Shown: positions 1 to 38,405 of the stretch, piece after piece
Numbering within the stretch: the first letter of the stretch is position 1
How the letters are laid out: each line of letters opens with the position of its first letter
Origin: a virus
Reading direction: 5' to 3' (one strand)
Length of the DNA: 38,405 nt
IMG/VR virus record: IMGVR_UViG_3300032050_000349
Coordinates: 1-38,405 of that record
Program-made: the position numbers and the translations under genes
The notes under the pieces: generated by a model
What the model was told of the DNA's origin: nothing
The model's database searches: none
Seen by the model: the letters and a program-made list of their open reading frames with translations, nothing else

Positions 1-131
1 GCGGTTCTGGTGTAGGGCTTGCCTGTCAGGGGGTTAATGTATTTCTTGGCAATGCTGGTAAGGCTTTCTGGGCTTCTGTTGGTGGCCAGGGCAAGTAGGG
101 CTTCATCCAGGGTATCATCCCTTTTGGTTCT
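1..131. repeat. left copy of terminal redundancy (circle closure)
   Basis: Bases 1-131 match 38275-38405 with an offset of 38274 and a single difference (T at position 5, C at 38279); 6-131 are identical. This is the signature of a circular or circularly permuted molecule assembled with overlap, or of a short direct terminal repeat. It lies inside a protein-coding gene that reads through the junction, which favours circular closure. The one mismatch changes a Thr to an Ala codon in that gene and may be a sequencing error or population variant near a contig edge. Confidence 0.93.
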
Positions 132-347
132 TAAAAGAGGCCCGCTGATCTCTGTTTGGATGGTCTCTTCAACCACTTGTGCGGCCATCTTTGCCAGTTC
201 ATCCAGGCCAATGCCAGGATTCATGCCCTTCATCTGGGCAAGCCTCTCCTTAACCACATCCTCCAGGGTATCAATCTGGGAGGCCATGTCTGGGGTGTAG
301 CTGGCCAGGATGGAATCTGCTGGGTCTTGTTGATTGCCAATGCTCAT
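1..347 (-). CDS. 5' part of junction-spanning basic protein (180 aa in total)
   Basis: The ATG at 347 opens a frame that runs off position 1 and continues, after circular closure, to a TGA at 38079-38081, giving 180 aa. The start directly follows the AAAAACGGT motif and lies 8 nt after the stop of the upstream 3D-domain gene. The N-terminal half is acidic to neutral and helical (begins MSIGNQQDPADS). The C-terminal half is rich in Arg, Lys and Gln, ending with a run of basic residues, as expected of a nucleic-acid-binding protein. A stretch around RSPESLTSIAKKYINP resembles a helix-turn-helix used to sense repeated-site DNA, but I do not recognise the family. Function unknown; the real 3' end is listed at 38079-38405. 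Confidence 0.8.
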   Translation of the reverse strand, partial: MSIGNQQDPADSILASYTPDMASQIDTLEDVVKERLAQMKGMNPGIGLDELAKMAAQVVEETIQTEISGPLLRTKRDDTLDEALLALATNRSPESLTSIAKKYINPLTGKPYTRT

Positions 348-356
348 ACCGTTTTT
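347..356 (-). repeat. AAAAACGGTA motif, copy 1
   Basis: Minus-strand AAAAACGGTA; the last A is the A of the ATG start codon at 347. One of five exact copies, all in the same orientation, found only around the circle closure (others at 815, 37147, 37706 and 38097). It takes the place where a Shine-Dalgarno sequence would be expected. Confidence 0.75.
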
Positions 357-759
357 AATTCTCAACCTCCACCCAGGCATACCTGCCAATCTTGCCTAGC
401 TCTGCCATGGCCTGCTTCTGGGTGGCAAAAAACAAATCCACAACTGGCAGTTTGCCCCTGCTGGCTTTCCTGGCCACAACTGCTGTGCCTGTGTCCTTTG
501 CAATGTAAGTCTTGCCCTTAATTCTAACTTTGGAGCCATACCTAATTATTCTGGGGTCGACTGCACAGGATTTTCCACTAACCAGCCTCTTGCCTGTTGA
601 ACTTTGGTATTTGGCTGTCCATGGGTCTTGCTTTGGGTAAGCCCAATAAGCTGTTATCCTGGCCTTCAGCACCTTTTTTGGCTTGGGGTTTGGGTCTATC
701 AGTATGTTTGCCCCATGGCATGGAGCCAGAATGAGCATTAGCATGGCCAGAATCCTCAT
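355..759 (-). CDS. exported 3D-domain (MltA/RlpA-type) protein
   Basis: 134 aa. Residues 1-17 form a hydrophobic signal peptide (MRILAMLMLILAP then CHGA). The rest matches the 3D fold, the double-psi beta-barrel of MltA C-termini and RlpA-like proteins. The three defining Asp are visible: D68 in CAVDPRIIRYGSKV, D89 in AKDTG, and D108 in VVDLFF. Known 3D/MltA proteins are lytic transglycosylases or peptidoglycan-binding factors, so a cell-wall role outside the cytoplasm is likely. It sits in the early block, far from the lysis cassette, so it may act at the envelope early in infection rather than in lysis; that is inference. The start overlaps the upstream HTH gene by ATGA. Confidence 0.8.
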   Translation of the reverse strand: MRILAMLMLILAPCHGANILIDPNPKPKKVLKARITAYWAYPKQDPWTAKYQSSTGKRLVSGKSCAVDPRIIRYGSKVRIKGKTYIAKDTGTAVVARKASRGKLPVVDLFFATQKQAMAELGKIGRYAWVEVEN

Positions 760-1052
760 TGGTCTGCTCCCCTGGCATCAATCCAATGTGCAAATCTGCT
801 AGGCTTAACAATCTTACCGTTTTTTTCTAGCCACCTGGCGTGGTATTGAACTGCTCCCTGGCCAAGTTTAAGCACCCTGGCAACCACAGCAGTTGGGATT
901 CCCTCAACCAGAAGGATGGCAATGGCCTGTCTCAACAAATCAATCTTTTCTTGGCTCCTGTTTTTGGCCGTAAGCTTCTTGAACTCTGTGCTGTCTGGGC
1001 AGAGTTCATTCAAAAGCCTTTCAGCTTTCAGTTGGGCTGATTCAATGGCCAT
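756..1052 (-). CDS. small helix-turn-helix DNA-binding protein
   Basis: 98 aa, ATG start. Residues about 35-75 form a clear HTH-like pattern: a helix around LLRQAIAILLVEGIP, a turn at TAVVARVLKLGQ, then a recognition-like helix GAVQYHARWLEKNG. The family is not certain; the layout resembles small phage HTH proteins that act as regulators or terminase-like adaptors. It contains motif copy 2 near its 3' end and overlaps the 3D gene by ATGA. It is preceded by a 51-nt gap with a TTGACAC element at 1081-1086. A regulator for the adjacent repeated motifs is an attractive but untested idea. Confidence 0.7.
   Translation of the reverse strand: MAIESAQLKAERLLNELCPDSTEFKKLTAKNRSQEKIDLLRQAIAILLVEGIPTAVVARVLKLGQGAVQYHARWLEKNGKIVKPSRFAHWIDARGADQ
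815..826 (-). repeat. AAAAACGGTA motif, copy 2
   Basis: Minus strand reads seven A then CGGTA. It lies within the coding sequence of the HTH protein, in the frame AAA-AAC-GGT-AAG (Lys-Asn-Gly-Lys). Copies 4 and 5 are translated in a different frame, so the conservation is at DNA level and not of a peptide. Confidence 0.75.
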
Positions 1053-36193: not shown

Positions 36194-36673
36194 TCACAAT
36201 GGTCTGCCACAGGCTTGGCATTTTTCACCCTCTTCTTTTTTCCCCTCATCCTCTGGGGCTGTCTGCTCCATTAGCTCTGCCAGTTCCTCTGCACCAAAGC
36301 CTGTAATGTCCAAATCAACTTCCCCTGTATCCAGTTCTTCAATTAGGTCTTTGAGTTGGGGCAAATCAAACTCTCCACTCAATTTATTCAATGCAATGTT
36401 GGCTGTCTTTTCCTGTTGCTCATCTAGCCAGACAGCCCAGACATCCACAACATCCACACCCATGGCCATATAACATTTCAATCTTTGGTGGCCTCCAACA
36501 ATCCTGTTGGTTTTTGCGTTCCAGGTAATGGGCTGAAGATTCCCAAGCTCATGCAAAGATTTTGTTAGTCTGCCCAAAGCATCAGAAGAAATTTTTCTTG
36601 GGTTGTAAGACGCTGGCAGAAGTTCAGAGATTTTTTTCTGAACTAACATTGGGAATTTTTCTTTTTCTTTCAT
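36194..36673 (-). CDS. stand-alone ParB/Srx-fold protein
   Basis: 159 aa. ISELLPASYNPRKISSDAL, then GRLTKSLHELGNLQPITW and RIVGGHQRLKCYMAMG (GGHQR 60-64) define the ParB N-terminal nuclease/CTPase-like fold. No DNA-methylase or ParB HTH follows; a short acidic helix and a CQACGRPL half-knuckle end it. Phage stand-alone ParB-like proteins may nick, bind nucleotide or act with modification enzymes. First gene of the late block. Preceded by the control region. Confidence 0.78.
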   Translation of the reverse strand: MKEKEKFPMLVQKKISELLPASYNPRKISSDALGRLTKSLHELGNLQPITWNAKTNRIVGGHQRLKCYMAMGVDVVDVWAVWLDEQQEKTANIALNKLSGEFDLPQLKDLIEELDTGEVDLDITGFGAEELAELMEQTAPEDEGKKEEGEKCQACGRPL

Positions 36674-36844
36674 AAAGTTTTTTAGTTTAGGTTTTTACAA
36701 AATGGTTTTTTCAGAAACTCGCACAAAGAGTCGTCGGCTCGGAACCTGTCGGGCAGAGATTTTTGGTGTAAAAAGTTATCTAAATTACTTACGCAACAAC
36801 AACTTACACAACATATTACTTTATTTGTCATAAGTGCCTATACA
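36674..36844. promoter_or_regulatory. late control region (intergenic, 171 bp)
   Basis: Largest gap in the genome. Contains an imperfect palindrome GAGTCGTCGGCTC (36728-36740), two 12-bp direct repeats ACTTACGCAACA / ACTTACACAACA (36787 and 36802, 15 bp apart), and an AT-rich run. The 11-mer CAACAACTTAC (36797-36807) recurs at the early control gap. No clean -35/-10 pair for minus strand; TATGACA at about 36829 is the nearest. Also the place where the early block stops, without a clear terminator. Confidence 0.6.
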
Positions 36845-37117
36845 TCAACCAGTCAGCTTCTGTAAGTAGTGCCTAGCAATGCAACCCATTGATATTGAAG
36901 CCCTTACCACAAGCCAGACAACCAGGCCAATGCTCATGCCCACTAATAGTAGGGCTAAACCCAGCCCCCTGTATAGGGGCGTGTCCTCAAGCCCTATGCC
37001 TTGTGGTGCATGGTAATAGATGGGCTTGGCATCTGTAACACCCCTAATGGTAGTGGTTTGGGTAAGACATGGCTCTGCACCATTGCCTGGGCTTGCCTCT
37101 GTAAGTGGTTGATACAT
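36845..37117 (-). CDS. membrane protein, 90 aa
   Basis: 90 aa. An extracytoplasmic-like polar front (MYQPLTEASPGNGAEPC, then TQTTTIRGVTDAKPIYY) precedes one span: LGLALLLVGMSIGLVVWLVV (about 53-71). C-terminal short. Last gene of the early block. Motif copy 3 lies 30 nt before its ATG. Unknown. Confidence 0.62.
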   Translation of the reverse strand: MYQPLTEASPGNGAEPCLTQTTTIRGVTDAKPIYYHAPQGIGLEDTPLYRGLGLALLLVGMSIGLVVWLVVRASISMGCIARHYLQKLTG

Positions 37118-37146: not shown

Positions 37147-37159
37147 TACCGTTTTTTTT
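37147..37159 (-). repeat. AAAAACGGTA motif, copy 3
   Basis: Minus strand reads eight A then CGGTA, in the 156-nt gap between the 90-aa membrane gene and the 164-aa gene; the only fully non-coding copy. Rest of that gap holds no supported gene. Confidence 0.75.
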
Positions 37160-37273
37160 CTGCCCAGGTGGGTGTTTCCAGGCTACCCTTGGTGGGGCTT
37201 GGCTGGTGTCCCCACCCTACCCTGCTGGTGCAAGGCTTGTGGTCGGGCTCCCAGGGGGCTTTATGGGCATCCT

Positions 37274-37768
37274 TCAAAGCCTACCCCCTGCCTCCACCCA
37301 GGCTTCCACCAGGGGCTTGGCCTCCTCCACAAACTCAAGCCTTTGGGCTTCTGTCCATTGGGTGGGGCTTTTCTTGGCCACCCATTGCTTGGCCTTAAAG
37401 ACATAGGCAAGCCAATGGGCTTGTGGTCTGGGGCTGGAGCCTTCAATGGGGTCGGGCAGAATCCCTGCCCATAGGCACAATTGCTTGAGTTCCCCAGGCT
37501 TGGGGTTGGTCAGCATGGCCTTGGATTTGGCTACCCGCTCCAGCCTCCGCCCCTCTTCACCGTTTATTCCACCCACTTTCAGAACTGCCTCCACATCAAG
37601 CCCCTCACTCCTGGCTGAAAGGAGCAACTGCCCTGCATCTGCGGCTAGGCTGATGGCCTCTGCCATGTCTTGGATTGCCTGTTCCCTGGCCTGGCGTAGC
37701 TTGCCTACCGTTTTTTGTAGCTCCATTCCTACCCGCTTCTCGTTGTCCTGGCTGATGGCCTTGCTCAT
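37274..37768 (-). CDS. hypothetical helical protein (164 aa)
   Basis: 164 aa from ATG at 37768, with AAGGAG 9 nt upstream; a longer frame to 37810 overlaps the previous gene and is less likely. Helical: MSKAISQDNEKRVGMELQK, then QAIQDMAEAISLAADAGQLLLSARSEG split by Gly, GINGEEGRRLERVAKSKAM, and an aromatic C-terminus. The middle recalls DUF3102-like phage proteins (AAxAGxLLLxARSxG) but not enough to name it. Motif copy 4 is inside its 5' part. Confidence 0.6.
   Translation of the reverse strand: MSKAISQDNEKRVGMELQKTVGKLRQAREQAIQDMAEAISLAADAGQLLLSARSEGLDVEAVLKVGGINGEEGRRLERVAKSKAMLTNPKPGELKQLCLWAGILPDPIEGSSPRPQAHWLAYVFKAKQWVAKKSPTQWTEAQRLEFVEEAKPLVEAWVEAGGRL
37706..37716 (-). repeat. AAAAACGGTA motif, copy 4
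   Basis: Minus strand reads six A then CGGTA, inside the 164-aa gene, translated Q-K-T-V-G. About 52 nt after the start codon. Confidence 0.75.
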
Positions 37769-37779
37769 GTGTATGCTCC

Positions 37780-38082
37780 TTATGCTGTTGCCAATTCTTC
37801 CTGGGGGCATTCGGCCTCCTGGGCGTCCTCGGCTGGTGGTTCTAGCTCCCTAAATCTGTGCTGGGAAAAGCCTCTTTCTGGGTGTGGTGGGACTGAAGAG
37901 CATGGGTTCTGAAGCCCCTCCAGGTAAACCACCACCTCTCCTGGCTGTCCGTCCAGGCTGATGCCCACCCCCATTCCCCTCACCAGGTAAACCTTATCCT
38001 TAATGGGCAAGCTGTTGTAGTGCAAGAGCAGGTCTGTGGGGAACCTGTCATCCACACATATAACCTTGCTCCCCTGCCTCAC
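37780..38082 (-). CDS. hypothetical 100-aa protein
   Basis: 100 aa from a GTG at 38082, which overlaps the junction gene's stop by GTGA and has AGGGGG upstream; an ATG at 38148 would overlap by 70 nt. Beta-rich front (QGSKVICVDDRFPTD, then DKVYLVRGMGVGISL and EVVVYLEGLQNP), then HRFRELEPP and an acidic tail. Resembles small phage proteins with a VGxxVVCVDD...YxVRxV...LEG pattern, function unknown. Confidence 0.65.
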   Translation of the reverse strand: MRQGSKVICVDDRFPTDLLLHYNSLPIKDKVYLVRGMGVGISLDGQPGEVVVYLEGLQNPCSSVPPHPERGFSQHRFRELEPPAEDAQEAECPQEELATA

Positions 38083-38405
38083 TTTTTCCCCCTGGCTACC
38101 GTTTTTTTGATGCCCTTTTGCCAGGCTCCCTTTGGCCATTTGGGACATTCCTGGCGTCTCCTCTGGTGAACCCTCAAGGCTCTGGCCTTGTAAATCTCCC
38201 TAACCCTTTGAGATCGCTGAACCCTCAACACAAGCCCTGTCCTTTGTGATAGCTCTGAAAGCCGTGCAGACAGGGCGGCTCTGGTGTAGGGCTTGCCTGT
38301 CAGGGGGTTAATGTATTTCTTGGCAATGCTGGTAAGGCTTTCTGGGCTTCTGTTGGTGGCCAGGGCAAGTAGGGCTTCATCCAGGGTATCATCCCTTTTG
38401 GTTCT
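38079..38405 (-). CDS. 3' part of junction-spanning basic protein
   Basis: Continues the frame that starts at 347, through the circle closure (38280-38405 equal 6-131), to TGA at 38079-38081. The C-terminus is Arg/Lys/Gln-rich (RTGLVLRVQRSQRVREIYK, then RVHQRRRQECPKWPKG), fit to bind nucleic acid. Stop overlaps the next gene's GTG. The region after 38274 is redundant with the left end. Confidence 0.8.
   Translation of the reverse strand, partial: RTKRDDTLDEALLALATNRSPESLTSIAKKYINPLTGKPYTRAALSARLSELSQRTGLVLRVQRSQRVREIYKARALRVHQRRRQECPKWPKGAWQKGIKKTVARGKK
38097..38108 (-). repeat. AAAAACGGTA motif, copy 5
   Basis: Minus strand reads seven A then CGGTA, in the last codons of the junction gene (K-K-T-V-A) and about 15 nt before the GTG start of the next gene. 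Confidence 0.75.
38275..38405. repeat. right copy of terminal redundancy (circle closure)
   Basis: Same sequence as 1-131 with one mismatch (38279 C against 5 T). Removing it gives a unit of 38274 bases. Confidence 0.93.

Follow-up and report, generated by a model that had tools for sequence, protein, structure and literature searches.

We analyzed the window, a stretch of 38,405 nt that makes up an IMG/VR-type virus record from an uncultured phage family. The two ends of the window share a 131-bp overlap with 1 mismatch, which closes the record. Around the closure, genes HTH, B, C, D, E and F lie in that order on the minus strand and make up the right-end operon. The HTH gene (756..1052) encodes a 98-aa protein with a weak winged-HTH match (PF24266, E=0.00027, below the curated cut-off). 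Gene B (355..759) encodes a 3D-domain, lytic enzyme-like protein (PF06725, E=6.5e-9). Gene C runs over the closure (1..347 plus 38079..38274), and its 180-aa product is basic and looks HTH-like by eye. Gene D (37780..38082) probably starts with GTG at codon 23 of a long ORF; in relatives this position is ATG or GTG. Gene E is a 178-aa ORF (37274..37810) with a probable start near 37768, and gene F (36845..37117; 90 aa, membrane-protein-like by eye) is the last gene before cos. A TAGT DNA glycosyltransferase gene (1104-2006) adjoins the array of sites described below. The genome also encodes a lambda-type terminase (PF05876/PF20454; TerL), a portal protein (PF05136) and a ParB-like protein (36194-36673) that matches PF02195 ParB_N (below the cut-off) and ParB-like PHROGs, through its N-terminal domain only.

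We found five exact copies of AAAAACGGTA by scanning both strands of the whole window (347-356, 815-824, 37147-37156, 37706-37715 and 38097-38106). All five are on the minus strand, which is the coding strand, and there is none at any other position in the 38,405 nt. The number expected by chance, from 100 dinucleotide shuffles, was a mean of 0.09 and a maximum of 2. Given the closure, the five sites fall within ~2.0 kb of the circular map. The exact count agrees with the initial annotation, which had described five same-strand copies around the closure and nowhere else. The A-tract of 5-8 before CGGTA was likewise seen at the five sites, and the CG of the word stands out, as had been claimed, in a CpG-poor region (CpG observed/expected of 0.15-0.19 near the sites).

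The sites fall in different sequence contexts. S1 (AAAAACGGTA; 815..824) is in the 3' end of the HTH gene, in codons AAA AAC GGT AAG, 56 nt before the HTH/B junction. S2 (TTAAAAACGGTATG; 347..356) spans the stop codon of B (TAA) and the start codon of C (ATG). S3 (38097..38106) is 16 nt short of the C/D junction, within the 3' end of C. S4 (37706..37715) is in the 5' part of E, in codons AAA ACG GTA, 53 nt past the D/E junction. S6 (37147..37156) is in the non-coding gap between E and F, upstream of the start of F. That is, the word is read as AAA-AAC-GGT in the HTH gene and as AAA-ACG-GTA in C and E, and the two other sites are at a stop/start junction and in a non-coding gap. These contexts indicate that conservation acts on the DNA letters and not on a peptide, as the earlier reading had it. 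A look-alike, AAACGGTG, is on the minus strand inside E (37558..37565; codons for I-N-G-E). We did not retain it as a member of the conserved set: L008 and L092 have lost its CpG (ATC AAT GGT).

The core of the word is AAACGGTA; in relatives its 5' side is merely A-rich. Six non-homologous site positions had only AAACGGTA and two A's 5' of it in common, and comparison of these six revealed no second element that recurred convincingly beside it. This argues against a two-box promoter, which would have a second box at fixed spacing. A -1 frameshift signal (A AAA AAC) was also discarded; it is compatible with just one coding frame. Hairpins around single sites were visible by eye at some sites and were not conserved.

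Conservation of the sites in relatives

Relatives were found by searching with the TAGT glycosyltransferase and the HTH protein. The close relatives (L006-L013, L086-L096 and L099), here called clade A, have AAACGGTA at positions homologous to the window sites. S2 is in every clade-A genome with gene B and is gone where B is gone; the S3 position reads AAACGGTT in L093, L095 and L096. We counted the word in five large clade-A records (G002, G003, G005, G006 and G008), a comparison called for by the initial annotation. AAACGGTA was limited to this region and always lay on the coding strand, never on the opposite one. The many copies elsewhere that would have spoken against the sites did not appear; two of the records (G003 and G006) had one further copy, in the TAGT gene ~480 bp upstream. 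When 7- and 8-mers from the last 2.7 kb of five clade-A genomes were ranked de novo, AAACGGTA headed the list in four; in G008 it was third, after the overlapping words AAAACGGT and AAACGGT.

The sites have been kept against a strong loss of CpG. In an alignment of ten clade-A genomes, the site CpG was retained at S1, S3 and S6 in 10/10 genomes each, at S4 in 9/10, and at S2 in 6/6 (the genomes with gene B). In contrast, the mean retention of 92 other CpG columns in the same alignment was 0.28, and only 3 of these were fully kept, one of them in cos (Fisher P=5e-5). The possibility that the sites would lack conservation in relatives, raised at the outset, was thus not borne out. At S6, AAACGGTAG was invariant in 10 genomes and its flanks had diverged. 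Clade A has CpG at 0.27-0.49 of the expected level, with TpG and CpA up at 1.2-1.36, compared to 0.77-0.86 and about 1.1 in the other clades. This dinucleotide pattern is what methyl-CpG decay would leave, and the CpG loss looks mutational. Such decay serves as a natural clock that marks sites under selection. Clade A, marked by this CpG depletion and TpG/CpA excess, has the TAGT DNA glycosyltransferase; a scan of window ORFs turned up neither a TET nor a cytosine methylase.

It is conceivable that the array is simply a by-product of protein coding or base composition. Some sites do encode conserved peptides (K-N-G, K-T-V), and both the additional TAGT-gene copy and the AAACGGTG look-alikes fall in coding sequence. 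However, the use of two frames plus one non-coding site and one junction site, the retention of CpG at the sites, and the strict confinement and strand in the five large records make this explanation extremely improbable.

The strong array is restricted to clade A. Clades B, C and D, which have normal CpG, contain AAACGGTG, AAACGGCG or AAACGGTT in the corresponding region. At first, it seemed attractive that the motif had shifted in concert across the family, with TA in clade A, TG in clades B and D, and CG in clade C. This reading was weakened later because copies in clades B-D are often on shared codons, the look-alike codons in clade D are just modestly above average conservation, and no comparable word leads the 7-/8-mer ranking in clade D. 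In loci L146-L200, AAACGGTT is in the 3D gene (codons G-K-R-L), and its AAA CGG is present in ~90% of clade-D loci, somewhat above the mean codon conservation of that gene (0.77). Locus L175 is clade-D-like with intermediate CpG, and its E/F end is clade-A-like with AAACGGTA, a mix that suggests recombination at the right end.

One site per cistron junction

The gene order HTH, B, C, D, E, F has five junctions, and each has one site within 56 nt. From HTH to F, the distances between site and junction are 56, 0, 16, 53 and 0 nt. Five random positions conform to this rule with P=0.0001, in a test that was designed after the map was seen and that uses the probable starts of D and E. Relatives without gene B are also missing the B/C site and have four sites for four junctions, with distances of 53, 15, 53 and 0 nt (P=0.00076); the B-containing and B-less types have four sites in common. 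An intercistronic element, one of the possibilities offered initially, fits this arrangement, which is conserved in relatives.

One site for each cistron junction is also what would be seen if the word acted in the mRNA, as a translation-initiation context, a processing site or the target of an RNA-binding protein, similar to the start-associated sequences (SAS) of mycobacteriophages discussed below. Every site is in the sense strand, and in clade-B locus L111, AAAACGGTGA is on the start codons (GTG) of C, an inserted gene and D. However, the position of the clade-A sites varies, from 56 nt ahead of a junction to 53 nt past it; S2 alone overlaps a start codon, and only S2, S3 and S6 are close upstream of one.

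A second observation against an mRNA element comes from word counts in the left ~35 kb of the genomes, pooled over clades and compared with shuffles of synonymous codons. AAACGG was under-represented in this genome body (40 seen vs 116 expected), and its complement CCGTTT was scarce too (13 seen vs 80 expected), which an RNA signal does not predict. The scarcity by itself proves little because the family avoids hundreds of words, most of them restriction-site-like. As a mild argument, scarcity on both strands favors AAACGGTA being read as double-stranded DNA. Taken together, we consider an mRNA-level element somewhat unlikely.

Among the words avoided in various clades (the window and G012-G032) are GCAGC, GATCC, GGWCC, CCWGG, CTNAG, CATG, ACGT and GCGC, all far below the synonymous-shuffle expectation. 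This avoidance suggests that the hosts belong to a group with many restriction systems. Loci L207-L218 (clades B, C and D) carry differing modification genes, for a Mom-like protein, a C5 methylase and an N6/N4 methylase.

The array and a probable right cos end

We identified a probable 10-nt cohesive end, GGTTCCGAGC, at 36737-36746 on the minus strand. Contigs G003 and G006 each have GGTTCCGAGC at both ends. Both ends of G018 carry GGTTCCAAAC, and those of G014 a 9-nt form. The sequence is kept at the same place in circular records. Contig ends repeated in this way would be expected if 10-nt 5' cohesive ends had been filled in. With cos at this position, the array would be in the last ~0.4-2.4 kb of the linear genome, with every site pointing 5' to 3' toward the right cos end. 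In clade A the array stops ~390-410 bp (~0.4 kb) before cos. The remaining gap holds TAAAAAGTTATCTA (36769-36782; coding strand TAGATAACTTTTTA), 22 nt from cos; the ten clade-A right ends compared have no longer invariant run. The words ACTTACA and ACTTATG recur in this gap. The last ~2.7 kb of G014, G015 and G019 contain G runs of 8-12, which are almost absent elsewhere in these relatives.

The place of the array so close to cos, together with the lambda-type TerL, could indicate a signal for the terminase as it nears the right end, either cosQ-like or a set of slow-down sites. We regard this as very unlikely. The cos signals known so far are nearer, within about 0.2 kb of the cut, and the sites here travel with genes; the B/C site vanishes along with gene B.

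The sites might instead be Chi-like octamers for a host RecBCD/AddAB-type enzyme that enters the right cos end, where they would promote recombination or limit degradation. Several properties are shared with Chi: the word is a short, polar, isolated octamer without a partner box, it is used in any reading frame, and its 5' to 3' direction toward the right end would be the active orientation, the one in which known Chi is read by an enzyme arriving from the 3' side. Chi words described so far measure 5-8 nt and are recognized only 30-40% of the time (PMC5959072), so several copies, here 0.4-2.8 kb from the cos end, would make sense. AAACGGTA has CGG in common with AGCGG and GAAGCGG, and the published Chi table (PMC5959072) does not list it. 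We compared AAACGGTA with a reversed control word in ~470 genomes, some of mixed taxa and others from Verrucomicrobiota, Cyanobacteriia, Burkholderiales and Bacteroidia; in most of this sample, which may not include the host of the phage, AAACGGTA was not clearly enriched. In addition, Chi does not predict one site per junction, clade D is without a comparable outstanding word, and degradation up to a site would still take away cos. We judge Chi-like function to be unlikely. The fuller version, in which the octamers are host Chi that act in the active orientation at the right cos end to give recombination and in which the retained CpG may carry a cytosine modification, is quite doubtful.

A candidate reader and comparison with known systems

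The AAACGGTA array is very probably a working control site. Our preferred reading, held tentatively and at a little less than an even chance, is that the sites are sequence-specific, orientation-dependent regulatory sites, one for each right-end cistron junction, that act in a manner similar to stoperators. A phage DNA-binding protein would bind AAACGGTA on double-stranded DNA, and the bound sites would slow or stop transcription stepwise. The right-end operon runs toward cos and, in the circular genome, onward into the ParB, terminase and structural genes, so transcription would be checked before it crosses cos into them.

The first choice for the reader, as a guess, is protein C, because sites are over its own start codon and at the 3' end of its gene. 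The 98-aa HTH protein, put forward in the initial annotation, is a possible reader, and C is at least as good a candidate. C is 71-90% identical across clades (tblastn hits), with a nearly invariant middle. Its structure model was of low confidence and gave no PDB match below E=1, its neighbors yielded no family assignment, and a search with protein C found no prophage or cultured relatives. The system is small: five sites, 2 kb and three candidate DNA-binding proteins (C, HTH and E).

Of the known systems proposed at the start, parS was set aside. The sites are isolated, non-palindromic octamers rather than palindromes, and the "ParB-like" protein matches the ParB N-terminal domain without the HTH domain.

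The stoperators of Cluster A mycobacteriophages (sites for L5-type repressors) are asymmetric, are present in several copies and have an orientation that follows transcription (PMC9283540). The sites here are similarly asymmetric, in one orientation relative to transcription and at or between cistrons. The layout proposed in the stoperator comparison (one orientation, several frames, junctions, presence in relatives) stood. The genome-wide spread of stoperators was not seen: stoperators are 13-mers across the genome, whereas here an octamer core is present in five copies in the right-end region only. Unlike stoperators, the sites are also inside coding ends. Stoperators are repressor sites; here, no repressor or lysogeny genes were identified.

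The SAS of Cluster K mycobacteriophages are asymmetric and gene-linked, almost always face one way and are conserved among relatives (PMC3203893), features that the array shares. The paper describing SAS leaves open which protein reads them (PMC3203893). In contrast to the sites here, SAS (GGGATAGGAGCCC) are immediately upstream of starts, and their sequence is unrelated to AAACGGTA. In layout, the array resembles stoperators or SAS, and we assign it to neither. Polar, repeated junction sites, known from a few mycobacteriophage groups, are here found in an unrelated family of uncultured phages.
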